This document shows, piece by piece, positions 11,472-57,758 of a stretch of DNA of 64,000 nt. Within the stretch, counting starts at the first letter, position 1. Each line of letters begins with the position of its first letter. The translations under genes were made by a program, and so were the position numbers. Origin of the DNA: Gemmatimonadaceae bacterium (GTDB lineage: Bacteria > Gemmatimonadota > Gemmatimonadetes > Gemmatimonadales > Gemmatimonadaceae); NCBI GenBank assembly GCA_024710705.1, contig JANJUF010000104.1, forward strand, positions 1 through 64,000, read 5' to 3'. A model generated the notes under the pieces. It was not told the DNA's origin. It searched no databases and saw nothing but the letters and a program-made list of their open reading frames with translations.

Positions 11472-12284
11472 TTAGTGCTCCCGGTTGATCGCCATCTTGC
11501 TCTCGGCAATCAGGAGCATCACGAGCGCGGCGATGCGCTCGCGGCGTTCCTCGGCGGCGATGCCGCTCGGGATCCAGGCCCGCGCGTCGTTGGCACCGAG
11601 CAAACCACCACCGGCGCTCTGCACGACGCCTAACGGCCGCTCGCCGTCCTGGATCAACCAACCCTCGGCCACCGGGCTGAGGAGCGATCGTGGGGCGCTC
11701 GGTGCCGTCGGGCCCCACGGCGACACCGGAACGACCGTGAGTTCCCGCGGGCCACGCCGCAGCCGGTGCGTCGAGGTGGCGAGCGAGCTCCCCGGTGCGA
11801 GCTGGACGGTGTGACGGTCCAGGGTCCACCACCGCGACGTGTCGGCGGCGAGGGCGAGGCGCTGGACCGAACGGAACTCCTGACGGTTCACGACGCGGCG
11901 CTCGTCGTCGGGGTTGCTGCGGCCGATCCCCGCGGGCGGCGTGACGTCGGACTCCAGGATGTACTCCACGGTCGCGGTTGCCCGCCAGCCATCCGGTCCG
12001 TGCAGCTGATACGTCAGGTCCACGCTGTCGCGCTTCGTGAACTGGTTCCGGAAGAAGCCGGCGTCACCATCGCTCCGCCGCGCCCGCACGCGAGCGACGT
12101 CGCGTACGGCGAGACCGTCGACTCGATATCGCGGCAGGTGTGTGGACGCACCCAGCTCGATCATCACCTCCTGCCACTCCCCCTCGGGAGACTCCACCCA
12201 GGTCGGGCGCACCGATGGCGCATTGGTGCGCGAGACGCAACCGGCGAGGAGCAGGGTTCCGAGGGCAATCCCGAGAGTCCGCAT
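11472..12284 (-). CDS. putative lipoprotein, unknown function
   Basis: The 270-residue protein has a lipoprotein signal with lipobox L-L-A-G-C (Cys16). The mature part is mostly beta-type and polar: EWQEVMIELGASTHLPRYRVDGLAVR, a DLTYQLHGPDGWRATATVEYIL segment and WWTLDRHTVQLAPGSSLATSTHRLR. The C-terminal 40 residues are helical (AEERRERIAALVMLLIAESKMAI). I do not recognise the family. A TAGAGT hexamer 6 nt before the ATG suggests a leaderless message. It is divergent from the SUMF1-like gene and convergent with citrate synthase. Confidence 0.75.
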   Translation of the reverse strand: MRTLGIALGTLLLAGCVSRTNAPSVRPTWVESPEGEWQEVMIELGASTHLPRYRVDGLAVRDVARVRARRSDGDAGFFRNQFTKRDSVDLTYQLHGPDGWRATATVEYILESDVTPPAGIGRSNPDDERRVVNRQEFRSVQRLALAADTSRWWTLDRHTVQLAPGSSLATSTHRLRRGPRELTVVPVSPWGPTAPSAPRSLLSPVAEGWLIQDGERPLGVVQSAGGGLLGANDARAWIPSGIAAEERRERIAALVMLLIAESKMAINREH

Positions 12285-12296
12285 GACAAGACTCTA
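12284..12296 (-). promoter_or_regulatory. leaderless -10 (TAGAGT, 6 nt before ATG)
   Basis: On the minus strand TAGAGT (12291-12296) is followed by CTTGTC and then the ATG at 12284. With a transcription start 7 nt after the hexamer, the mRNA would begin at the A of ATG. No Shine-Dalgarno is present. Confidence 0.5.
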
Positions 12297-16356: not shown

Positions 16357-17061
16357 TCACGCATCCGACGACCTGCAAACCATCCGCACCGGGCAGGCAT
16401 CGCATCGCTTCACCCGGGCCGTGCACACCAGCGCACCAAGCTCCATCAGCGCCTGATTGTGCGTCCACGTCGCCTTGCCGGTACGCGGCAGCGTGGCTTC
16501 GGCGATGGCCCAGATGCGTTTCTGGTCGCGGGAGCGCTTGGGCTGCAGCCGCGGGGCGAACACCCGGGTGAGCACGCGGGCCACATTGGTATCCACCAAC
16601 GACGCGCGCCTCTCGAAGGCGAAAGTCGCGACCGCACCCGCGGTATAGGCGCCGATGCCAGGAAGACGGCGCAGCTTCGCGGGCTCGGCGGGCAGTAGCG
16701 GTCCGGTGTCGTCACCCCAGGCACGCGGCCCCTCCCGCACCACGGCGCGAGAGAGCTTGTGTAGGTTCCGCGCCCGCGCGTAGTAGCCGAGCCCGGCCCA
16801 GGCGTCGAGGACCTGGCGCTCCTTCGCATCCGCCAGCGCGTGGAGGGTCGGGAATCGCGTAAGGAATCGCGTCCAGTAGTCCAGCACACGGCTCACCTGC
16901 GTCTGCTGGAGCATCAGCTCCGAGACGAGGATCGCGTACGGGTCGCGCGTGTGGCGCCACGGAAGGTCACGGGCGTTGCGGCGATACCAAGCCCGGAGTT
17001 TGCTGCCGAAGGTCCGGATGCGCTGCGGGTCGAGCCGGAGCGCACTCAGTGCGGTTGCCAC
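16357..17061 (-). CDS. mutY: MutY-type A/G-specific adenine glycosylase, short form
   Basis: The 234-residue HhH-GPD protein has the catalytic Glu in SELMLQQTQV, a MutY-type Tyr in LPGIGAYTAGAVATFAF (endonuclease III would have Lys), catalytic Asp in VDTNVARVLTR, and the 4Fe-4S ligands C-x6-C-x2-C-x5-C in CTARVKRCDACPVRMVC. It ends there: the C-terminal NUDIX-like domain that reads 8-oxoG in ordinary MutY (about 350 residues) is absent. It removes A opposite 8-oxoG, or could be a MIG-like mismatch glycosylase. Start GTG at 17061, overlapping the upstream permease stop by 16 nt. Confidence 0.85.
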   Translation of the reverse strand: MATALSALRLDPQRIRTFGSKLRAWYRRNARDLPWRHTRDPYAILVSELMLQQTQVSRVLDYWTRFLTRFPTLHALADAKERQVLDAWAGLGYYARARNLHKLSRAVVREGPRAWGDDTGPLLPAEPAKLRRLPGIGAYTAGAVATFAFERRASLVDTNVARVLTRVFAPRLQPKRSRDQKRIWAIAEATLPRTGKATWTHNQALMELGALVCTARVKRCDACPVRMVCRSSDA

Positions 17062-17687
17062 GTGGGTGCCGCGGAAAAGAGGCCGCCATCAACAATCAGC
17101 TCGCGTGCGAGGAGCAGTCCGAACACGATGCTCAGCGTCCCGGCGGCCAAGCGCACGCCGGTGCGCATGCGATGCACCCGCGAGGTGGCGTAGCGTGCCG
17201 GGACCGCGAGCAGCAGCGTCACCAACATCATCCCGAGAATGGTACCGATGCCGAACATCACGAGATACGCCGCCGCCGCCATCGGGGCGCGGATCGTCGC
17301 CAGCACCAGGAGCGCCACCGCCGCCGAGCCGGCGAGTCCGTGCACGACGCCGATGAGCAACGGACGCGCAAGCGTCGGCGCCGCCTCGGAATCCTTCACG
17401 CGCAGATTGGCGTAGCCGAGGCCGATCAGCATCAGGGCCACGCCAAACTCCAGCGCCAACCCCACGCGCGGTGGAATCACCAATCGGAAGGCGATGATCG
17501 CGCCGCCGAACAACAGCAACGTGAGCGTGTGCCCCACTCCCCACACTGCCCCGATGCGCGCCGCGCGCACCAGTGAACGCTCGCGCGCGACGATGGTGGT
17601 CACGGCGACCACATGGTCGGCGTCGGTGGCGTGGCGGAGTCCAAGCAGCACTCCCAGCAGGATCGGCGTCAATGATTCGGCGAGCAT
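17046..17687 (-). CDS. nickel/cobalt transporter family (NiCoT/UreH-like) permease
   Basis: The 213-residue membrane protein has six to seven hydrophobic helices. The first helix holds LLGLRHATDADHVVAVTTIV, the NiCoT signature H-A-T-D-A-D-H that binds the metal. A second short signature GVVHGLAGSAAVALL lies near residue 113. It likely moves Ni2+ or Co2+, although short UreH-like members vary. The ATG at 17687 lies 9 nt after the tetR-like stop, whose TAG is part of a TAGATT hexamer. It may therefore have its own leaderless promoter despite the tight spacing. Confidence 0.85.
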   Translation of the reverse strand: MLAESLTPILLGVLLGLRHATDADHVVAVTTIVARERSLVRAARIGAVWGVGHTLTLLLFGGAIIAFRLVIPPRVGLALEFGVALMLIGLGYANLRVKDSEAAPTLARPLLIGVVHGLAGSAAVALLVLATIRAPMAAAAYLVMFGIGTILGMMLVTLLLAVPARYATSRVHRMRTGVRLAAGTLSIVFGLLLARELIVDGGLFSAAPTWQPH

Positions 17688-17699
17688 CCGCGGAATCTA
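17687..17699 (-). promoter_or_regulatory. leaderless -10 (TAGATT) made from the upstream TAG stop
   Basis: On the minus strand CGCTAGATT is followed by CCGCGG and the ATG at 17687. TAG at 17699-17697 is the stop codon of the TetR gene and the first half of the hexamer (17694-17699). The spacing of 6 nt places transcription start at the A of ATG. Confidence 0.55.
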
Positions 17700-31238: not shown

Positions 31239-32203
31239 GCGATGGCCGCCGTGCGTGCGCGGATCTCGCCGTCGGGCGTCCGCACCACCACTTCGCTGCC
31301 CGGCTCGACTTCGCGACGCAGCATCGCGAGCGCCAGGGGCCCGCGCGTGGCCGAGACGACGCTCGAACGTACGTCCCCGACTTCCTTGCCTTCGGCGTCC
31401 ACCACGCGGGCGCCCGTGGGCAGGCGTTGGGCGGCGCTCAGCCAGCGCAGGTGACGGTTCACGTGCCCACGGAAGTGGATGCGCGCGACGACTTCCTGTC
31501 CGGTGTAGCAGCCCTTATTGAACGAGATGGCGCCGAGCACGTCGAGATTCGCTTCCTGCGGGATCGTCTCCGCGTCCATGTCCACGCCGAAGCGGGGAAG
31601 CCCACGCTCCACCCGCGCCGCTTCGACCACCTCCTCGCTCGCTTCGGCGAGACCTGCGCGTCCGAGCGCGGCACGCAGCGACGCCACCGCATCGGGTGCG
31701 CCGATCACGTCGAATCCCGGCACGCTGAAGTCAGCGGAGCGCACGACGTCGAACGTTCCGTCAGGCGAGCGCAGGATGCCGACAGGCGAGCGCAGGATGC
31801 CGAATGGCGACAGCGCCTCGAGCGCCGCCGCGTCCACACCGACGGCAGGGGCAAGTTGCGCCGCCACGGCCGGACCATATACACCCAGGCACGCGGTGGC
31901 GTCGGTGACGGTCGCGTACTTGGCCATGCGCGGATTCACGAACTTGCGGATCATCGCCACGAAAGGCTCGCCGGAACTGGCCTCGCCATCCACCAGCAGG
32001 TCCGCGCCGCGATCGAACACGCGCAGCATCGCGATCACGCGCCCTTTCGGCGTGAGCGCCACGGCGCGCTGCCCCTGTCCGGCCGCGAGCGACAGCACGT
32101 CACTGGTCACGAGACCGCCGAGGGCCTCCTTGGCCTTCTCGCCGGCGAAGGTGATGCGAAAGCGGGCGCTGCGGTCCACCAGGAACGTCGGCATCGCGCT
32201 CAT
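31235..32203 (-). CDS. ygfZ: YgfZ/GcvT-fold folate-binding protein
   Basis: The 322-residue tetrahydrofolate-binding protein helps maintain Fe-S clusters. The YgfZ signature K-G-C-Y-x-G-Q-E is intact in FNKGCYTGQEVVARIHFRG, preceded by VERGLPRFGVDMDAETIPQEANLD. The N-terminal domain starts AMPTFLVDRSARFRITFAGEKA. A 7-residue in-frame tandem duplication is present (GILRSPVGILRSPD, from a 21-bp DNA repeat). It is coupled by ATGA overlaps to the HAD gene upstream and the Mo/Fe-S oxidoreductase downstream. Confidence 0.92.
   Translation of the reverse strand: MSAMPTFLVDRSARFRITFAGEKAKEALGGLVTSDVLSLAAGQGQRAVALTPKGRVIAMLRVFDRGADLLVDGEASSGEPFVAMIRKFVNPRMAKYATVTDATACLGVYGPAVAAQLAPAVGVDAAALEALSPFGILRSPVGILRSPDGTFDVVRSADFSVPGFDVIGAPDAVASLRAALGRAGLAEASEEVVEAARVERGLPRFGVDMDAETIPQEANLDVLGAISFNKGCYTGQEVVARIHFRGHVNRHLRWLSAAQRLPTGARVVDAEGKEVGDVRSSVVSATRGPLALAMLRREVEPGSEVVVRTPDGEIRARTAAIA
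31762..31803 (-). repeat. perfect 21-bp tandem duplication inside ygfZ
   Basis: Two identical adjacent 21-nt units (31762-31782 and 31783-31803) encode GILRSPV and GILRSPD on the minus strand. The duplication keeps frame, and no third copy is present. Confidence 0.9.
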
Positions 32204-32877
32204 TTGGCGGCGTGGGTGACCAGCGTCCGCACGCGCTCGGGGGTGAGGTCGGCCAGCGACTCCACCCAGCTGTCGGCTTCCATGGCGTCCTGGGGCTGGA
32301 CCGGCCCGACGATCACCGAGCCGAGTCCGGCGGCGCGCGCCGCGCGCACGCCCACGACGCTGTCCTCCACCGCCAGCCCGCGCAGCACCTGGCCCGGAAA
32401 CAGCTCGGCCACGCGTTTCAGCGCTGCCTCGTAGGGGGCCGCAGCAGGCTTCGGTGCCGCATCCTCGATGGTGATCACCGGACGGAACAGCGCATCGAGT
32501 CCGCCAAGGCCGAGCACGAATTCCACCTCGCGGCGCGAGGCACGGGTGACGATCGCGAGCCGCGCCACGCTGGAAAGCCGCTCAAGCGCCGCGCGAGCGC
32601 CGGGCTGTAGCGCCAATCCCTTCCCGGCGCGCTCGGCGAAGGCGCGCTCGGCGCGAAGGCGGCAGAGCTCCGCGGCTGTCGGGTCATCGGCGGCGTCCAC
32701 CGCGGCGCGGATGCGTGTCACGCCGTCCTCCACGCTGCGCCCATCGGCGAGGCGGAACAGGTCAGCCGTCAGGACGATCCCGTCGGCGGCCATTGCTTCG
32801 GTAAGCGCGCTCGCGCGGAGGGCGGCGGTATCGGCCAGCACCCCCTCGAACTCCACGAGCAGCACGGGGACCTCCAT
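32200..32877 (-). CDS. HAD-superfamily protein with Glu replacing both motif I aspartates
   Basis: The 225-residue protein has the HAD subfamily I layout of phosphoglycolate phosphatase-like enzymes: a helical cap (about 18-85), motif II LAIVTRASRREVE, a motif III lysine in AAPKPAAAPYEAAL and motif IV VLRGLAVEDSVVGVRAARAAG. Motif I, however, reads VEFEGVLADT rather than the D-x-D-G-T/V-L consensus. E9 and E11 replace the nucleophile and the acid/base Asp. Ordinary phosphoaspartyl chemistry is therefore unlikely. It sits between glycolate oxidase genes and ygfZ. Its ATG is 9 nt after the glcF stop, with a leaderless-type hexamer across the stop. Confidence 0.85.
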   Translation of the reverse strand: MEVPVLLVEFEGVLADTAALRASALTEAMAADGIVLTADLFRLADGRSVEDGVTRIRAAVDAADDPTAAELCRLRAERAFAERAGKGLALQPGARAALERLSSVARLAIVTRASRREVEFVLGLGGLDALFRPVITIEDAAPKPAAAPYEAALKRVAELFPGQVLRGLAVEDSVVGVRAARAAGLGSVIVGPVQPQDAMEADSWVESLADLTPERVRTLVTHAAK

Positions 32878-32889
32878 ACCCGAATCCTA
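32877..32889 (-). promoter_or_regulatory. leaderless -10 (TAGGAT) made from the glcF TAG stop
   Basis: On the minus strand GTTAGGAT is followed by TCGGGT and the ATG at 32877. The glcF stop codon (32887-32889) is the first half of the hexamer (32884-32889). It could give HAD, ygfZ and the Mo oxidoreductase their own transcript. Confidence 0.5.
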
Positions 32890-38809: not shown

Positions 38810-39361
38810 CTACCAGGTGACTTCGCCGGCGCCGGCGCGCTTGTTGGCGACCCGGGCGAGGACGAAGAGCAGGTCCGAGAGCCGATTGAGGTACACGATC
38901 ACGATCTGGGGCACCTCGGTGTCACGCTGCAGGGTGATCACCGCCCGCTCGGCGCGGCGGCAGACCGTGCGCGCCACGTGCAGCGCGGCCGCCTTGGGCG
39001 TTCCGCCCGGCAGGATGAAGGCCTTGAGCGGCTCCAGCTCGGCCTCGCCGTCATCGATGGCCTGTTCCATCTGGGCGATTCGGGCGTCGGAGATGCGCGC
39101 CTTCTCGAGCTGCTCCTTCATCTTGTCCATGTCGGGCGTGGCGAGCATGGCGCCGAGCGCGAAGAGGTCGCGCTGCACCGGCGCCAGCACCTCGTCGATG
39201 CGCGGCATCATCTCCACCGAACGGGCCATGCCGATCACGGCGTTGAGCTCGTCCACTTCTCCATAGGCGGAGACGCGCGGATGGTCCTTCGCCACGCGTC
39301 CACCGCCGAACAGACCGGTGTCGCCGGCGTCGCCCGTCTTGGTGTAGATCTTGAGAGTCAT
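38810..39361 (-). CDS. PduO-type cob(I)alamin adenosyltransferase
   Basis: The 183-residue protein has the PduO/MMAB N-terminus KIYTKTGDAGDTGLFGGGRVAKDHPRV (ATP loop), then the helical bundle with YGEVDELNAVIG and FILPGG, and RTVCRRAERAV (ATP arginines) and YLNRLSDLLFVLAR. It transfers adenosyl from ATP to cob(I)alamin, giving coenzyme B12. The ATG is 9 nt after the kinase stop with TAGATT across the stop. Confidence 0.95.
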   Translation of the reverse strand: MTLKIYTKTGDAGDTGLFGGGRVAKDHPRVSAYGEVDELNAVIGMARSVEMMPRIDEVLAPVQRDLFALGAMLATPDMDKMKEQLEKARISDARIAQMEQAIDDGEAELEPLKAFILPGGTPKAAALHVARTVCRRAERAVITLQRDTEVPQIVIVYLNRLSDLLFVLARVANKRAGAGEVTW

Positions 39362-39373
39362 CGCCGAAATCTA
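39361..39373 (-). promoter_or_regulatory. leaderless -10 (TAGATT) made from the kinase TAG stop
   Basis: On the minus strand CGCTAGATT is followed by TCGGCG and the ATG at 39361. The kinase stop codon 39371-39373 forms the first half of the hexamer (39368-39373). The octamer GCTAGATT is identical to that before the 17687 and 57189 starts. Confidence 0.55.
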
Positions 39374-40378
39374 GCGGGCCCGGGGGCGCGTGTCCGGGAT
39401 GTCGGCGCTCCGGATCTCGCGCGTGCGACGCGTCGGCGGCTGGTAGCTCTCCGGGAAGAGCGCCGCGAGATGTTGTTGGAGCCGTTCCGGCGACCCGGGC
39501 GTGCCCTGCGCCATGTTCCACTTGTCGAGCGAGAGGCCGAGGACCGCCGCGCTGGGTCGTGACTTCGGGTCCTTGGAAATCGCCCCGCCGATGATCCCCC
39601 GTACGCCGATGTCCACCATCGGCAGCAGGGGATCAAGGTCCGGCGTGGGGCTCACGACCACTTCCTCGATGGCCGCCAGCGTCTCGTTCTCCGTGAACAG
39701 GGTGCGCAGCGCGAAGAGCTCGAAGAGGACGACGCCCATCGAGAAGACGTCGGCGCGCGAATCCACCGCGCGCCCGAGTAGCTGCTCCGGCGCCATGTAG
39801 TGCTTCTTGCCGAGCAGCAGCGGCTTGCTGGCGGAGGGATCGAACATCGTCCGCGCCTTGGCGATGCCGAAATCGGCGAGCTTCACGTGGCCGTCCCAGG
39901 TGAGCATCACGTTGCCCGGCGACACGTCGCGGTGCACGATCTCGAGGCGCTCGCCGTCGTCGTTCACGTAGTGGTGCGCGAAGTCGAGGGCTCGGCACAC
40001 GCGGCTGGCGCAGTAGGCGGCGATGTCGGGCGGCAGCGGCTCGCGCCGCTTGCGGTGCGTGTTGATCAGCGTCCGCAGCGTGATGCCCTTGATGAACTCC
40101 ATGGCGATGAATGGCCCGCTGGCCGACTGCCCCAGGAAGTAGATCTGGACGATGTTGCCGTGCACGAGGTTGGCCGAGAGCTTGGCTTCGTCGATGAACA
40201 GCTGGAGCCACTCCTCGTGCTCGGCGAATCGGTCGTGGATGATCTTGACCGCCATGCGCTTGGAGAAGCCGGAGGCCCCGAGCTGCTCGGCCTCGTAGAC
40301 GGTGGCCATGCCGCCGCGGGCGACCTCTCGGAGGAGCCGGAAGCGCGTTTCGGTGACGAGGTCCTTGGAGTCGGCCAT
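39371..40378 (-). CDS. Ser/Thr protein kinase (Hanks type), cytoplasmic
   Basis: The 335-residue kinase has the glycine loop (VARGGMATVYEAE), the lysine in MAVKII, catalytic loop HRDVSPGNV, LADFGIAKA, MAPEQLLG and the subdomain IX Asp in DSRADVFSMGVVLFEL. All residues for activity are present. The HRDVSPGN variant is common in large-genome soil bacteria. No membrane helix or sensor domain follows; the C-terminal tail is only about 60 residues, so input is unknown. It is divergent from the FNR gene at 40445 across 66 nt. Confidence 0.95.
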   Translation of the reverse strand: MADSKDLVTETRFRLLREVARGGMATVYEAEQLGASGFSKRMAVKIIHDRFAEHEEWLQLFIDEAKLSANLVHGNIVQIYFLGQSASGPFIAMEFIKGITLRTLINTHRKRREPLPPDIAAYCASRVCRALDFAHHYVNDDGERLEIVHRDVSPGNVMLTWDGHVKLADFGIAKARTMFDPSASKPLLLGKKHYMAPEQLLGRAVDSRADVFSMGVVLFELFALRTLFTENETLAAIEEVVVSPTPDLDPLLPMVDIGVRGIIGGAISKDPKSRPSAAVLGLSLDKWNMAQGTPGSPERLQQHLAALFPESYQPPTRRTREIRSADIPDTRPRAR

Positions 40379-40444
40379 GCAGTGAGGAGGGTCTCGGGGG
40401 GTCGGGCGTTGCTCGAAGGGCCGCCTGCCAGCGATTTTATATGG

Positions 40445-41464
40445 ATGGCAACTCATGACATCCGTGACATCACGATCATCGGCGGAGGCCCCACGGGGCT
40501 GTTCGCCCTCTTCTACGCTGGCATGCGCGGGGCCACGGCGCAAATCGTGGACGCGCTTTCCCAGCCCGGCGGCCAGCTCTCCGCCCTGTATCCGGAAAAG
40601 TACATCTTCGACGTCGCCGGCTTCCCGAAGATCCTGGCGAAGGATCTCGTCACCCAGTTGATGCAGCAAGCCGGACAGTTCGGGCAACCGATCCACTGCG
40701 GCCAGAACGTGATCGGCCTCGAGGAGCAGGATGGGCACTTCGTGCTCGTCACCGAGACCGACCGCTTCCCGACGCGTTCGGTGATCATCGCCGCCGGCAT
40801 CGGGGCGTTCTCGCCGCGCCGACTGCCGCAGGCCTGCGCCGGGCCCTGGTACGGCAGGGGCATCGAGGACATGGTGCTCGAGCCGCGGAAATTCGCCGGC
40901 CAGCGCGTGGTGATCATCGGCGGCGGGGACTCGGCGTTCGACTGGGCGCACCAACTCGAGGGCATCGCCGCCGGCATCACGCTGGTGCACCGCAGCGACC
41001 GCTTCCGCGCCCATCAGGCCACGGTGGATGCCGTGATGCAGTCGGCGGCGCTGGGCAAGACGGCCATCCACACGTTCCACGAGCTCGCCGAGGTGCACAG
41101 CACGGACGGCCGGCTCACCGGCATCGAGCTCAAGGACATCAAGGCCAAGACGACCCGCCGCGTGGACTGTGATGTCGTCCTCCCGATGCTGGGGTACGTC
41201 TCCGATATGGGCGCACTGACCACGTGGGGCCTCACGGTGGAGAAGGATGAGATTGTCGTGAACCAGCTGATGGAGACGGGGCGGGCGGGCCTCTGGGCGG
41301 CCGGCGACGTCAACACGTATCCGGGCAAGCTCAAGCTCATCGCGGCCGGCTTCGCCGAGGCGGCGATCGCGGTGAACCAGGCCGTGCACTGGATCTATCC
41401 CGAGAAGAAGGTGAATCCCGGGCACTCGTCCAACCTGGCCGTCTTCGGACAGAAGGACGAGTGA
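40445..41464 (+). CDS. ferredoxin/flavodoxin-NADP+ reductase, thioredoxin-reductase-like
   Basis: The 339-residue flavoprotein has an FAD motif ITIIGGGPTGLFALFYAGMRG, the FNR-type QPGGQLSALYPEKYIFDVAGFP block, an NADP motif VVIIGGGDSAFDW and the C-terminal FAD contact GLWAAGDVNTYPGKLKLIAAG. It lacks the CxxC disulfide of thioredoxin reductase, so it fits TrxB-like ferredoxin:NADP+ reductases. The ATG at 40445 follows an AT-rich TTTTATATGG stretch, which may act as a promoter close to the start. Confidence 0.93.
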   Translation: MATHDIRDITIIGGGPTGLFALFYAGMRGATAQIVDALSQPGGQLSALYPEKYIFDVAGFPKILAKDLVTQLMQQAGQFGQPIHCGQNVIGLEEQDGHFVLVTETDRFPTRSVIIAAGIGAFSPRRLPQACAGPWYGRGIEDMVLEPRKFAGQRVVIIGGGDSAFDWAHQLEGIAAGITLVHRSDRFRAHQATVDAVMQSAALGKTAIHTFHELAEVHSTDGRLTGIELKDIKAKTTRRVDCDVVLPMLGYVSDMGALTTWGLTVEKDEIVVNQLMETGRAGLWAAGDVNTYPGKLKLIAAGFAEAAIAVNQAVHWIYPEKKVNPGHSSNLAVFGQKDE

Positions 41465-41468
41465 CCCG

Positions 41469-43715
41469 GTGACATTGCGGCGCGCACTCCTCCTCGCCTT
41501 CGCACTGGTCGCGCCGCCGCTGTCCGCGGTCGGGGCGCAGGAGACGCGATGCGACCGCGGCGACGTCGAGGTGGGGGCGTTGAGCTTCGCCGGCAACGAG
41601 GCCTTCTCCGACGCCGTGCTGGCCAGCGGCATCGTCACCACGGCGTCGTCGCGCGCGCGCCGCCTCTTCCGCTTCGTCGGCGCGCGCCGCTGCCTCGACC
41701 AGTCCGAGTTGCCGCTGGACGTGCTCCGGCTGCGGCTCTGGTACCGCAACCACGGATTCATCGACGCCACGGTGGACACGGTCGTGGCGGACATGGGACG
41801 GTCACGCGTGGAGGTGCGCTTCCTGATCAACGAGGGCGAGCCAGTCCGCGTGGACACGCTGCGCGTGAACGGGCTCGACGACGTACCCGAGCGTGCGCGG
41901 ATCATCGACGACCTGCCGACGCGACTCGGCGGCTGGTTCAACCGCTATGCCAACGCGGCCACCCGCGACACCCTCACCCGCCGCCTGCGCGACAATGGCT
42001 ACCCCGACGCCGAGGCCTTCCTTGGCTACGACCTGCGCGGCGGGGAGCGGCGGGCGACGGTGGAGTTCACGGTGGTGCCGGGGCCACGGCGGCGCATCGG
42101 CCGCATTGACCTGGTGCAGGAGGGACTCGACGGCGGCGAACCGGAGGTGCGCGCCAGCGCCGTGCGCCGGCTCGCCGGGCTGCGCGAGGGCGATCTCTAT
42201 CGGGAGCGGCAGCTCGAGCGCGCCAAGCGCACACTCTACCAGAGCGAAGCCTTCACCCAGGTGTTCGTCGAGCCGGGGATCGAACTCGGCGATTCCCTCA
42301 TCGCCATCAACGTGGCGGTGCGCGAAGGCTACCTGCGCTCGGCGCGCCTCGGTGGCGGCTGGGGCTCGCTCGACTGCTTCCGCACCACCGGTGACCTCAC
42401 GCAGTACAACCTGCTGCAGTCCGCCACCCGGCTCGAGCTGCGAGGGCGCGTCTCCAAGATCGGCATCGGCGATCCCCTCGGCGGCGCGGCGGCACTCTGT
42501 CCGCAGGCCCAGGACGACATCTACAGCGAGAACCTCAACTACTACGTCGGGGCCACACTCTCGCAGCCGGCGGTGCTCCGCACGAGCTTCGTGCCGACGC
42601 TCTCGCTCTACTCGGAGCGCCGCTCCGAGTACAACGCCTACCTGCGCACGACGCCCGGCGGCGGCAGCCTCGCCCTCAGCCGCAGCAGCGGCGGCCGCTC
42701 CAACGCCATCGGCTACACGCTCGAGTACGGACGCACCGAGGCGCAGCCGGCGCTGTACTGTGCCGTGTTCAATGCCTGCGAGGCGGAGGACCGGGCGCGC
42801 CTGCAACGTGACCAGCGGTTGGCCGTGCTCAGTGCCTCCACGAGTTTCGAGCGCACCGACGACCCCTTCGCCCCGTGCCGCGGGGTCGTCACGCGCGCCG
42901 AGGTGCGCACCGCCGCCCGCTTCGTCGGGGCCGAGGCGGATCTCCGATTCACGCGCATCACGCTCGACGGCTCGGCCTACGTGCCGCTGGGATCGGACGT
43001 CGTGTTCGCGGCCCGGTTGCGCCTCGGGGCGGTGTTCGGGGCCACGCTCGGCCTCGGCGACATCGCGCAGTTCGTGCCGCCACAGGAGCGCCTCTTCGCC
43101 GGCGGCCCAACCTCGGTGCGCGGATTCCGGCAGAACGAACTCGGCCCGGCCGTGTACATCCCCACCGGGTTCGACACCGTCAACACCGACGGCACGCAGG
43201 CGAACAGCGTCGGTCCCGGCGACGTGGTGTACCTCCGGTCGGATCCGACGCTGGTGTCGGAGCGCGCCGTGCCCACTGGGGGCAACACGATGCTGGTCGG
43301 CAACGCGGAACTGCGGGTGGCCTCCCCCTTCCTCGCCAACCTTCTCACCTGGACGCTCTTCGCCGACGTCGGTGAACTCTGGAACCGCGGTGCCGGCGTC
43401 AGGAGCCTCGGGTTCAAGGGGCTCAAGTTCACGCCCGGGCTCGGCATCCGCATTCGTACGCCCATCGGATACATGCGCGCCGACCTCGCCTACAACCAAT
43501 ACGATCGGCCGGGAGGCGCGGCGTACTTCGATGCGCCGGTCTCGGCCGGTGGCGCCCTGTACTGCGTGAGTCCCACCAACACGATTCCCACGACGCTGGA
43601 GAACGGGATTCTCGTGCAGGAGTCGGCGAGTTGTCCCGGCTCCTACGCGCCGGGCGCGCGCCGCGGGTTCTTCGGGCGCTGGACGCCGTCCATCGCCATC
43701 GGGCAGGCCTTCTGA
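41469..43715 (+). CDS. Omp85/BamA-TamA family outer-membrane protein
   Basis: The 748-residue protein starts at a GTG with a signal peptide ending SAVGAQ. POTRA-type repeats follow (VEVGALSFAGNEAFSDAVLAS, VDTLRVNGLDDVPERARIID, RIGRIDLVQEGLDGGEPEVRASAV), then a barrel from about residue 300. The Omp85 motif appears as FAGGPTSVRGFRQNELGP, followed by LGIRIRTPIGYMRADLAYN at the end. It sits 1 nt before a TamB-like gene, so it is best read as the TamA-like half of a translocation pair rather than the essential BamA. Confidence 0.9.
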   Translation: MTLRRALLLAFALVAPPLSAVGAQETRCDRGDVEVGALSFAGNEAFSDAVLASGIVTTASSRARRLFRFVGARRCLDQSELPLDVLRLRLWYRNHGFIDATVDTVVADMGRSRVEVRFLINEGEPVRVDTLRVNGLDDVPERARIIDDLPTRLGGWFNRYANAATRDTLTRRLRDNGYPDAEAFLGYDLRGGERRATVEFTVVPGPRRRIGRIDLVQEGLDGGEPEVRASAVRRLAGLREGDLYRERQLERAKRTLYQSEAFTQVFVEPGIELGDSLIAINVAVREGYLRSARLGGGWGSLDCFRTTGDLTQYNLLQSATRLELRGRVSKIGIGDPLGGAAALCPQAQDDIYSENLNYYVGATLSQPAVLRTSFVPTLSLYSERRSEYNAYLRTTPGGGSLALSRSSGGRSNAIGYTLEYGRTEAQPALYCAVFNACEAEDRARLQRDQRLAVLSASTSFERTDDPFAPCRGVVTRAEVRTAARFVGAEADLRFTRITLDGSAYVPLGSDVVFAARLRLGAVFGATLGLGDIAQFVPPQERLFAGGPTSVRGFRQNELGPAVYIPTGFDTVNTDGTQANSVGPGDVVYLRSDPTLVSERAVPTGGNTMLVGNAELRVASPFLANLLTWTLFADVGELWNRGAGVRSLGFKGLKFTPGLGIRIRTPIGYMRADLAYNQYDRPGGAAYFDAPVSAGGALYCVSPTNTIPTTLENGILVQESASCPGSYAPGARRGFFGRWTPSIAIGQAF

Positions 43716-52061: not shown

Positions 52062-52067
52062 TAGATT
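52062..52067 (+). promoter_or_regulatory. -10 element (CGCTAGATT) of the DMT operon
   Basis: TAGATT at 52062-52067 is preceded by CCGC and lies 9 nt before the ATG at 52077, giving a leader of about 3 nt. An in-frame GTG at 52071 is only 3 nt away and would precede the expected transcript start, so the ATG is the better start. Confidence 0.5.
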
Positions 52068-52076
52068 GCAGTGCCT

Positions 52077-52955
52077 ATGACTGCATCGCCGCGCGCTTCG
52101 CGCGCCACCGAACTGACGCTGGTCGCGATGGCGGTCATCTGGGGCGTGAACTTCTCGGTCGTGAAGTACGGCACACAGATGATGTCGCCGATCGCGTTCA
52201 ATACGCTGCGCATGGCCATCGGCTGCGCCGTGCTCTTCGCGATCGCCTATGCGCGTCCGGGGCGCCGTCCCTCCGTCGCCGACCGCAACCGGTTGCTGGC
52301 GCTCGGCGTGCTCGGCCACTGCGTGTACCAACTGCTCTTCGTGCAGGGGCTCGCGCTCACGCGCGCCGGGACTGCATCGCTGGTCGTGGCAGCCAGTCCG
52401 GCGGCGGTGGCCATCGTCGCCCGTGCCTTCGGGCACGAGCGCCTGCCGATGAAGGCGGTCGTGGGGATCGCCCTGTCCATCAGCGGCGTGATGCTGGTGG
52501 TGGGTGGTACCCTGAAGGCCGACGGCACGGGACACCTTCTGGGAGACCTGCTCATCCTCGGCGCGGTGGTGGTCTGGGCGTTCTATACCACCGGGCTCGT
52601 GCCGCTGGCCCAACGGGTGGAACCCGCACAGGTCGCCGCCTGGACGCTCGTCGGTGGCGTCGCGCCACTCGCCCTGCTCGCGGCGCCGTCCCTGCTCGCC
52701 ACCGACTGGGGAGCCGTCGCACCGCTCACCTGGGGGGCCATCGCCTACTCCGGACTGCTCGCGATGGTGGTGGCCTACCTCATTTGGTACCACGGCGTGC
52801 GGGAGATCGGCCCCACCCGGACGGCGATGTTCGCCAATCTACAACCCATCGTCGCGGTACTCGTGGCCTGGGCCATGCTCGGCGAGGTGCCGACGATCTT
52901 CCAAGGCACCGGCGCCACGGCGGTGCTCGGCGGACTCTACCTGGCGCGGCGATGA
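52077..52955 (+). CDS. EamA/DMT family transporter
   Basis: The 292-residue protein has ten hydrophobic helices in two EamA repeats: LVAMAVIWGVNFSVVKYG at the start of the first and GDLLILGAVVVWAFYTTGLVPL at the start of the second. Typical family features are ALTRAGTASLVVAASPAAVAIVA and TRTAMFANLQPIVAVLVAWAMLGE. It likely exports metabolites or amino acids. It opens a plus-strand operon with HAD, CYTH, an orphan and acpS, and overlaps the next gene as ATGA. Confidence 0.92.
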   Translation: MTASPRASRATELTLVAMAVIWGVNFSVVKYGTQMMSPIAFNTLRMAIGCAVLFAIAYARPGRRPSVADRNRLLALGVLGHCVYQLLFVQGLALTRAGTASLVVAASPAAVAIVARAFGHERLPMKAVVGIALSISGVMLVVGGTLKADGTGHLLGDLLILGAVVVWAFYTTGLVPLAQRVEPAQVAAWTLVGGVAPLALLAAPSLLATDWGAVAPLTWGAIAYSGLLAMVVAYLIWYHGVREIGPTRTAMFANLQPIVAVLVAWAMLGEVPTIFQGTGATAVLGGLYLARR

Positions 52956-55145: not shown

Positions 55146-57179
55146 GTGATTCAATTGAGAACGACTTTCATTTGCGTCGCGACCCTGATGATGGTCGCCC
55201 TCAGCGCTCCCGCAGCGCTCGACGCCCAAGACTCTCCCGCACGGCGGCTCGGCAACATCGTCGGTGTCGCACTCGACGAGTACGGCAAGGGCGTGGATGC
55301 GTCCGGCGCCATCGTGCTCCAGCTTGAGTACGACGAAGCGGTCGCCTTCCTCGACGACGCGTTCGCCCTCGCTGCGCGAGTGGACGATGCGCGCTCCGCG
55401 CCGTTGGTCGCCCTCGTTGGCCGCCTGCGGAGCCACGTCGCGCGCCGCGCGCCACCATCGGACCTCAGCGCCATTCACGCCGAGTTCGTAGCGCTGCTTG
55501 GTCCCGATGCCTCGCTTGACTATCCCACGCAGCCGGTGGACGTGGCGGAGGGGCGTGCACTCTACGAGATGCGCTGCGCCTCCTGCCATGGTGACCGCGG
55601 CGCGGGGGATGGCTTCGCCGCCGTCGGCATGGACCCCGCACCTCCGGCGTTCGCTGATCGCAGGCTGATGGCCGACGTCACGCCTGCCCTGATGTACCGC
55701 GTGGTCTCGGTGGGGATTCGCGGCACGGCCATGGGCGGATTCCCCGATCTCACGCCGGCGCAGCGCTGGGCGGTGGTCACCTACGTCACCACGCTGCGCA
55801 GCACAGCCGCCGACGTCATGCGCGGGCGTGCGCTGCTCGCCGAACACTGCGTCCTCTGCGCGGACTCCCTTCCCCCAACCGGCCATACTTTCGGCTGGCT
55901 TGCCGAGCGACACGACCAACAACTGCGCGCCGCGCTTGCCGTCGGCGACGCCTCGCTCGGGCTCGACGCCCAGCACCCGGTGCGCGGTCCGGACGCCGAC
56001 GCCGTGGTCGCCGCGCTCCGGGCCGAGCCCCGCGTGATCGCGGTGCCGGTACGCACCCCGGCGGTGGTCGCCGCGGACGTGCTGGCAATGCTCGACCGTG
56101 CCCTGGAGAGCGCACGCGCCGGCGAGTCGCATGCGTCGGACCTGGCCTTCGATGCCTACGTGGCGTTCGAGCCTCTCGAGTCGCAGGTGCGGACGCGCGA
56201 TCCGGGGCTGGTGGCCCTGCTCGAGTCGCAGTTCGCCGACTTCAGGGGCGCGGTCGCGGCGCGCGACATCACCGGTGCCACCAGTGCGCGCGCGCGCATC
56301 GCCAGCGGCCTGCCGCCGCTCGTGGATCTGGCGTCGCGCCCCGCCACCGGCTGGGGTGCCTTCCTCGAGTCGCTGCTGATCATCGTGCGGGAGGGGTTCG
56401 AGGCCATCCTCATCCTCGGCGCGGTCATCGCATTCCTCGTTCGCACCGGCAACCAGGCGCGCGTGCGCGAAGTGTGGTTCGGCGCCGGTGCCGGGCTCTT
56501 GGCGTCAGTTGCCCTCGCGGTGGTGCTACGCACCGCGCTCGCGAACGCGCCCGCCAGCCGCGAGGTCATCGAGGGGGCGACGATGCTCCTCGCCGTGGGC
56601 GTCCTCTTCTCGGTGAGCTACTGGCTGTTGACCAAGGTGGAAGTCGCCAAGTGGAAGGCGTTCATCACGGCACAGGTCGGGGCCGCGCTCACGTCGTCGC
56701 GCGCAACGGCCCTCGCCGTGGTCGCCTTCCTCGCCGTGTTCCGCGAAGGGGCCGAGACGGCACTCTTCTACCAGGCCCTCCTCGCGCGTGGACCGCAGGT
56801 GGTCCCTCCGGTGCTGGGCGGGTTCGCCGTCGGCGCGCTGCTGCTGGTCGTCGTGTGGATCGGCATCCAACGATTCGGCCTGCGCCTTCCGCTGCGCGCC
56901 TTCTTCGGCACCACGAGCGCCATGCTCTACGCCCTGGCCTTCATCTTCATGGGGAAGGGGCTCCGCGAGCTCCAGGAGGGGAGTGCCCTCTCGATCACGC
57001 CGCTCGAGCACGGACCATACGTCGGCTGGCTCGGCATCTTCCCGAGCGTCGAGACCCTCCTGGGCCAGGGCGTCCTGGTGGCGCTCGCGCTCGTCGCGCT
57101 CTGGCGGACCGTGTGGGTCGGGGCACGTGCGTCGGCGCTGGTGGTACCGCGCGGAGCGGAGGCCGAGCACGGCGGCTAG
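55146..57179 (+). CDS. cytochrome c-FTR1 iron permease fusion
   Basis: The 677-residue protein starts at a GTG with a signal peptide (to SAPAALDAQ). The N-terminal 360 residues are periplasmic and include one c-type heme site CASCHGDRGAGDGF and distal QxxAVVTYV-type helices. A second cysteine pair, CVLC, has no following His. The C-terminal 290 residues are an FTR1 permease of seven helices with both iron motifs: IIVREGFEAILILGA and AVFREGAETALFYQ. It probably imports Fe with coupled oxidation. CTAATTC lies just before the start. Confidence 0.92.
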   Translation: MIQLRTTFICVATLMMVALSAPAALDAQDSPARRLGNIVGVALDEYGKGVDASGAIVLQLEYDEAVAFLDDAFALAARVDDARSAPLVALVGRLRSHVARRAPPSDLSAIHAEFVALLGPDASLDYPTQPVDVAEGRALYEMRCASCHGDRGAGDGFAAVGMDPAPPAFADRRLMADVTPALMYRVVSVGIRGTAMGGFPDLTPAQRWAVVTYVTTLRSTAADVMRGRALLAEHCVLCADSLPPTGHTFGWLAERHDQQLRAALAVGDASLGLDAQHPVRGPDADAVVAALRAEPRVIAVPVRTPAVVAADVLAMLDRALESARAGESHASDLAFDAYVAFEPLESQVRTRDPGLVALLESQFADFRGAVAARDITGATSARARIASGLPPLVDLASRPATGWGAFLESLLIIVREGFEAILILGAVIAFLVRTGNQARVREVWFGAGAGLLASVALAVVLRTALANAPASREVIEGATMLLAVGVLFSVSYWLLTKVEVAKWKAFITAQVGAALTSSRATALAVVAFLAVFREGAETALFYQALLARGPQVVPPVLGGFAVGALLLVVVWIGIQRFGLRLPLRAFFGTTSAMLYALAFIFMGKGLRELQEGSALSITPLEHGPYVGWLGIFPSVETLLGQGVLVALALVALWRTVWVGARASALVVPRGAEAEHGG

Positions 57180-57191
57180 ATTCGCTGCATG
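57177..57191 (+). promoter_or_regulatory. leaderless -10 (TAGATT) made from the FTR1 TAG stop
   Basis: GGCTAGATT is followed by CGCTGC and the ATG at 57189. The FTR1 stop codon TAG (57177-57179) forms the first half of the hexamer (57177-57182). Spacing is exactly as at 17687, 32877 and 39361. Confidence 0.55.
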
Positions 57192-57758
57192 GATGCGCTC
57201 TTCGCCTCTCCCTGGGGGGCCCTTTTCATCTTTCTCGCGCGCATCGTGGACGTCTCGTGCGACACGATGCGCGTGCTCTTCACGGTGCGCGGCAAGCGCG
57301 GCATCGCTGGAGTCCTCGGCTTCACGCAGGCACTGGTATGGATCTTCGCGGTCGGTGCCGCCATCCGGCATCTCGATAGCTGGATGCACGTCATCGCGTA
57401 CGCCGCCGGGTATGCGGCCGGTACCATCAGCGGCATTACCATCGAACGCTTCGTGGCCTACGGCGTGGCGCAGGTCCGGATCATCACACGCGGCACCGGC
57501 GAGGCCATCGCCCTTGCGCTCCGCGACCTGGGCTTCGGCGTGACGCAGACGCGGGGCGAAGGACGCTCGGGTGGCGTGGATATCCTCCACACCATCGTGC
57601 AGCGCTCGCAGGTGGATGATGTGCTCTCGGTGGTGGACCGCATGGACCGCGCGGCGCTCGTGACGGTGGAGGAACCCCGCGCGGTACGCGGCGGGTTCGT
57701 GGATACACGCGAATGGCGCGTTCCCCTGCCGTGGGAGAAGTCGCGCCAGCGGGTCTGA
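57189..57758 (+). CDS. DUF2179/UPF0316 (DUF5698) membrane protein
   Basis: The 189-residue protein has three hydrophobic helices (about 8-25, 41-60 and 66-83), including FLARIVDVSCDTMRVLF and AYAAGYAAGTISGITIERF, then a soluble DUF2179 domain (VRIITRGTGEAIALALRDLGFGVTQTRGEGRSGGVDILHTIVQRSQVDDVLSVV). The C-terminal domain resembles those of YitT-type proteins and may bind a small ligand. The function is unknown. It sits 9 nt after FTR1 with a leaderless-type hexamer between. Confidence 0.85.
   Translation: MDALFASPWGALFIFLARIVDVSCDTMRVLFTVRGKRGIAGVLGFTQALVWIFAVGAAIRHLDSWMHVIAYAAGYAAGTISGITIERFVAYGVAQVRIITRGTGEAIALALRDLGFGVTQTRGEGRSGGVDILHTIVQRSQVDDVLSVVDRMDRAALVTVEEPRAVRGGFVDTREWRVPLPWEKSRQRV

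Follow-up and report, generated by a model that had tools for sequence, protein, structure and literature searches.

TAG stop codons that probably serve as half of the putative -10 element of the next gene in a Gemmatimonadaceae genome

The present analysis indicates that, in this Gemmatimonadaceae genome, the TAG stop codon of an upstream gene probably often doubles as the first half of the putative promoter box of the next gene. In the window (the whole stretch of 64,000 nt that was analyzed), four same-strand junctions carry the pattern TAG-N9-ATG: 57177-57191 on the plus strand (TAGATTCGCTGCATG, the lead junction) and, on the minus strand, 17699-17685 between a tetR gene and a transporter gene (TAGATTCCGCGGATG), 32889-32875 between a glcF-like gene and a HAD hydrolase gene (TAGGATTCGGGTATG) and 39373-39359 between a kinase gene and a cobalamin adenosyltransferase gene (TAGATTTCGGCGATG). 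At all of them, this TAG is the end of the upstream ORF and this ATG the start of the downstream one. The hexamer, TAGATT at three sites and TAGGAT at the fourth, begins at position -12 and is followed by 6 nt and the ATG, and the TAG opens it as the initial annotation had described. The best explanation, to which we give a probability of about 85% from sequence comparisons, is that each site would be a leaderless promoter of the sigma-70 type belonging to the downstream gene, whose -10 element shares TAG with the upstream stop.

Stop codons and gap lengths

The features of the four junctions are listed in Table 1. Pfam backs FTR1 plus cytochrome c, DUF5698/DUF2179, TetR, a GlcF-like Fe-S protein, HAD, the kinase and the cobalamin adenosyltransferase, in agreement with the product names initially proposed; the exception is the product named NiCoT, for which only a sub-threshold HupE/UreJ match was found. 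Among the genome contigs searched, the DUF2179 protein matched only a Gemmatimonadaceae MAG (58% identity), from which the organism is taken to belong to Gemmatimonadota.

Table 1. Coordinates of the shared hexamers, of the genes around them and of one hexamer without a shared stop
Feature	Positions	Strand	Support
TAGATT: proposed -10 hexamer of the DUF2179 gene, opened by the FTR1/cytochrome c stop (57177-57179)	57177..57182	+	
FTR1 iron permease/cytochrome c gene, whose stop is the shared TAG	55188..57179	+	Pfam
DUF5698/DUF2179 gene, ATG 6 nt past the hexamer, proposed leaderless start	57189..57758	+	Pfam
TAGATT: tetR stop and proposed -10 of the HupE/UreJ-like transporter gene	17694..17699	-	
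Putative transporter gene, proposed leaderless start	17046..17687	-	weak HupE_UreJ_2 match
TAGGAT: proposed HAD hydrolase -10, opened by the glcF-like stop	32884..32889	-	
HAD hydrolase gene, proposed leaderless start	32200..32877	-	Pfam
TAGATT: proposed cobalamin adenosyltransferase -10, opened by the kinase stop	39368..39373	-	
Cobalamin adenosyltransferase gene, proposed leaderless start	38810..39361	-	Pfam
TAGAGT hexamer at -12, upstream of the gene 11472-12284 (-); divergent neighbour, hence without a shared stop	12291..12296	-	

A 9-nt gap separates four of the 42 same-strand pairs of the window, and these are exactly the four junctions, all with TAG. The survey was extended to 826 kb of the same genome (a draft of 3.0 Mb in 137 contigs, with about 69% GC) and to 400 kb from the complete genome of a congener, G011. 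Genes were called with a codon-pair model, and their starts were chosen from the coding score and a small start-codon bonus, without any use of upstream motifs; all gene starts mentioned here are calls of this analysis. The sample from the draft genome includes 540 same-strand pairs and 737 starts and stops, and that from G011 includes 329 starts.

In the draft genome, 488 of the 737 stops are TGA, and TAG makes up 20% overall. Thirteen of the 540 same-strand pairs have a gap of 9 nt, and they display 12 TAG, one TAA and no TGA. The peak of TAG at this distance, which the initial annotation had expected from a tabulation of stops against gaps, is therefore present, and the mix of stops differs from that of other gaps (Fisher P = 2e-8 with the window included). 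With the window left out, the TAG excess is still found, with P = 1.2e-5 in this genome and P = 3.7e-7 when G011 is added. The nine gap-9 pairs of G011 end in TAG (n = 6) or TAA (n = 3), some of them being overlaps with a Shine-Dalgarno (SD) sequence (e.g., TAGGAGG) and not with a -10 element. A T is present at -7 in 12 of the 13 gap-9 junctions of the draft genome. A test independent of start calls gave the same picture: NN-T-N6-ATG follows 11 of 249 TAG or TAA stops compared to one of 488 TGA stops in the draft genome (P = 5e-5), and five of 150 compared to none of 179 in G011 (P = 0.02).

The hexamer and the putative leaderless promoter

Upstream of the called starts, the counts of TANNNT rise sharply when the initial T is at -12 (47 of the 737 starts of the draft genome and 22 of the 329 starts of G011); smaller counts are found at -11 and from -13 to -15, over a background of approximately one to three per position. 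Among the 69 motif-bearing starts of both genomes, position -8, which was not a selection criterion, is T in 53, and the third base of the hexamer (-10) is G in 48. A weak T at -35 (25/69) and a G at -33 (37/69) are at the distance expected of a -35 box spaced 17 nt from the -10, an element that is optional in promoters of this class, and TTGN is found at positions -35 to -37 in eight of the 47 starts of the draft genome. No SD-like match precedes any motif-bearing start (0/47 and 0/22), compared to 20% and 17% of the other starts of the two genomes, and no purine-rich SD lies beside the stop at any of the four window sites. In the draft sample as a whole, an SD-like match lies within 17 nt upstream of only about one fifth of the called starts, and SD use in this genome seems modest.

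The motif is also more frequent at divergent starts (10.4% in the draft genome and 9.4% in G011) than at same-strand ones (5.0% and 5.4%). The initial annotation had mentioned that the same hexamer occurs before genes devoid of an adjacent upstream stop, and this is borne out by 20 of the 47 motif-bearing starts of the draft genome, which are divergent to their neighbour and have no upstream stop; TAGATT is the commonest hexamer among them (6/20). The third base is G at 10 of these 20 divergent starts, at eight of 10 in G011 and, when all starts that lack a shared stop are pooled, at 33 of 52. Since G prevails in hexamers without a shared stop, it is a preference of the promoter and not a requirement of the stop. 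In the whole genome, TAGATTN(1-18)ATG has 51 matches compared to four for the reversed control, and the distance from hexamer to ATG is exactly 6 nt in 22 of the whole-genome TAGATT matches. Taken together, the position of TANNNT at -12, the absence of SD and the enrichment at divergent starts are the signature of putative leaderless promoters. A strict sigma-70 scan, which demands a near match to TATAAT/TTGACA, returned no promoter at the lead site, and no RNA family was found at the lead junction in Rfam.

In the reading that we prefer, the -10 element would be TAGNNT (consensus TAG[AC]TT) at -12 to -7, and a weak -35, marked by the T at -35 and the G at -33, would lie within the last part of the preceding coding sequence. 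RNA polymerase would use this hexamer and start transcription at the A of the start codon or right beside it, and translation of the mRNA would not involve an SD. Because the genus favours G as third base, the -10 element would contain TAG, which terminates one of the three reading frames. Any upstream gene running into it in that frame would end there, so that the same bases would be the stop of the first gene and half of the -10 element of the second, and the distance from hexamer to ATG, preferably 6 (or 7) nt, would set the gap at 9 (or 10) nt.

When an upstream gene reaches a motif-bearing start, its stop lies inside the hexamer in 17 of 19 cases, while one third would be expected from a random frame (P = 6e-7). 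Furthermore, the -12 hexamer was found in none of the 262 overlapping pairs (gaps from -60 to -1) of the two genomes. Both results suggest that leaderless promoters hardly occur within upstream coding sequences, and a shared stop would therefore be the tightest layout that keeps a promoter of its own for the downstream gene. The promoter alone does not explain why sharing exceeds the expectation of a random frame, and selection for compactness may be needed. It is possible, although we advance it only tentatively, that stop/-10 sharing has been selected in this genus as a way to build compact strings of genes that can each be transcribed independently, the TAG of the promoter acting as a backstop that fixes the ends of upstream genes and the junction being also usable for reinitiation on a read-through mRNA.

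Orthologous junctions and phylogenetic extent

The comparison of orthologous junctions indicates that promoter and stop can come apart. Upstream of the cobalamin adenosyltransferase gene, TANNNT is present at -11 or -12 in all 17 congeners and is TAGATT in 16. The kinase stop is the TAG of the hexamer in 10 of these 17, one other being at a contig edge. In three congeners (L028, L033, L036), the kinase gene ends 22-46 nt upstream and the hexamer is kept. In three others (L030, L037, L039), the kinase gene is missing and the neighbour is divergent, and the hexamer is again kept. More distant relatives from the family and the order include five loci with a hexamer and no shared stop (L042, L044, L047, L052, L053) and seven others without hexamer. 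Upstream of the DUF2179 gene, the stop is shared in the congener G015 (TAGCTT, gap of 9 nt), while L021 keeps TAGTTT with an FTR1 stop that is TGA and lies 32 nt upstream. Similarly, the stop is shared at four transporter junctions (L095, L096, L098, L104), and the hexamer is kept at three others where the TetR stop is 46-112 nt away (L102, L105, L107). At the HAD junction, the glcF TAG is shared at all 16 loci of the genus, with a gap of 9 nt at nine and of 10 nt at seven, the hexamer shifting together with the stop.

Since the hexamer persists where the stop moves or where the upstream gene is missing, the conserved unit is, judging from these junctions, the putative promoter, whose TAG often provides the upstream stop. 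This persistence, together with the placement at -12 to -7 and the enrichment at divergent starts, supports the proposal of the initial annotation that a stop and a promoter share bases. Its constant gap of 9 nt holds for the four sites of the window; elsewhere 9 nt is only the mode, orthologous pairs having also gaps of 10 nt and occasionally of 11-12 nt.

The motif extends far beyond the genus. In seven genomes of the genus, TAGATTN6ATG has 116 matches compared to two for its reversed control; the counts are 434 and 16 in the family (47 other genomes) and 319 and 16 in the order (37 genomes), and the excess is weaker in 53 genomes of the class (257 to 58) and in six of the phylum (45 to 17). 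The -12 peak is also present in a family relative (G020) and an order relative (G029), from which 400 kb each were analyzed. In these samples, only one shared stop was found in G020 (gap of 10 nt) and none in G029. The third base is less strict in the few -10 elements of these two relatives, and fewer of them are therefore able to act as stops. Stop/-10 sharing is thus limited to a lineage: our survey shows it to be frequent in two members of one genus, and the orthologous junctions extend this to the genus. Because outgroups carry the hexamer without a shared stop, we infer that the promoter usually came first and that the stop moved onto it later. The same pipeline applied to a Deinococcus deserti plasmid detected the -12 peak in 17 of 347 genes and no shared stop at gaps of 7-12 nt, in a sample that includes few close pairs.

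Alternative explanations and related systems

The initial annotation had also considered a reinitiation signal. In such a case, the ribosome would stop at TAG, rescan 9 nt and restart at the ATG, the stop and its spacing being selected rather than a promoter. The tight link between gap and stop identity would fit such a process, coupled genes are typically separated by short gaps, and the -4/-1 overlaps found in 165 of the 540 same-strand pairs of the draft genome are probably translationally coupled genes. However, we consider this reading improbable, as it explains neither the near-constant T at -7 nor the complete lack at gap 9 of TGA, which represents two thirds of all stops. Nor does it account for the hexamer before divergent genes, for the six adenosyltransferase loci that keep the hexamer where the kinase gene ends elsewhere or is missing, or for its absence from overlapping pairs in two genomes. 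A dual use, in which TAG-N9-ATG would be a promoter and would also allow reinitiation on read-through mRNA, would complete the leaderless promoter explanation and not replace it. The 17 of 19 reached promoters with a stop exactly in the hexamer and the HAD junction that retains its shared stop in all 16 congeners speak for this addition. We nevertheless find it doubtful, since the shared stop has been lost at adenosyltransferase (CobO) and transporter junctions where the hexamer remains, and read-through transcription would itself be an assumption.

A 9-nt gap leaves, by simple arithmetic, both ORFs in the same frame, and the spacing could be imagined to serve a programmed read-through of TAG that fuses them into one protein. 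This is very improbable: no functional link is evident between the paired proteins, the hexamer is present without any upstream ORF, and the 10-nt gap at seven of the 16 orthologous HAD junctions breaks the frame, for which reason in-frame read-through was rejected as the cause of the spacing. A small-sample coincidence in one window, with four cases only, would deserve even less credence; chance is ruled out by the TAG excess that holds outside the window, also with G011 added, and by the 51 matches compared to four in the reversed control. The reading as leaderless promoters whose -10 element contains the upstream stop is thus the one that we retain.

Promoters with a -10 element at the ATG are known from leaderless genes of Actinobacteria and Deinococcota (PMC3160421, PMC3898074, PMC12340547): the -10 element adjoins the start codon and transcription begins there. 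Such genes carry TANNNT about 12 bp before their start codon, as described by Zheng et al. (2011, PMC3160421) and in the TSS map of M. tuberculosis (PMC3898074). The sites described here resemble them by the TANNNT core, the T about 12 bp before the start, the absence of SD and the high-GC genome, but differ by the preference for G as third base and by the capacity of the hexamer to hold the upstream stop; the text of PMC3160421 mentions neither Gemmatimonadota nor "stop codon". In Deinococcus-Thermus, reporters and RpoD binding demonstrated that a -10 motif directly before the ORF is the promoter of a leaderless mRNA (PMC12340547). The motif has the same position here, and the -12 peak was also found on the D. 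deserti plasmid, in a sample that, unlike our genome, has no shared stops at gaps of 7-12 nt. The text of PMC12340547 does not include "stop codon" or name Gemmatimonadota; its scan covered all bacterial phyla, and its supplementary figures may include this one.

The nearest analogue is the overlap between a stop and the SD of the next gene, which biases stop usage and gap length, e.g., TAGGAGG with a gap of 10 nt in B. subtilis (PMC2784483). In both cases, the stop shares bases with a start signal of the next gene; however, the SD acts in translation, whereas the signal here, which has T at -7 and lacks an SD, would belong to a promoter. Translational coupling by termination-reinitiation (PMC6728339) involves ATGA/TGATG overlaps and likewise concerns same-strand neighbours at very short distance; our junctions differ by the lack of TGA at the 9-nt gap and by a signal that persists without an upstream gene. 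Within a partial coverage of the literature, where absence is weak evidence, we found no report that joins Gemmatimonas with leaderless genes, no description of a -10-at-ATG promoter in Gemmatimonadota and none of a -10 element that overlaps a stop codon; one co-mention of Gemmatimonadetes and leaderless genes (PMC10783764) concerns anti-SD types.

If the leaderless promoter explanation is correct, genes that appear by distance to be operon members would carry their own promoters, and operon prediction from distance and strand would therefore fail at these junctions. The motif can also aid the annotation of start codons in Gemmatimonadota. More generally, this work suggests that a promoter preference can set stop codon choice and intergenic distance, as SD overlap does in other bacteria.

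Three other features of the window should be mentioned. The 856-aa ORF of the minus strand (39371-41941) is over-extended: the kinase itself occupies approximately 39371-40378 (-), the segment to which it was trimmed in the orthologue scan of the adenosyltransferase junction, and what looks like its N-terminal part lies antisense to a conserved divergent gene (40445-41464, plus strand). A terminator-like stem-loop with a T-rich tail lies at 57197-57220 (+), just inside the DUF2179 coding sequence (two found compared to 0.1 in shuffles). Finally, a TAGATT is separated from an ATG by a 9-nt spacer at 52062-52079 (+); eight such N9 sites exist genome-wide, and they possibly represent a second spacing class beside N6/N7.
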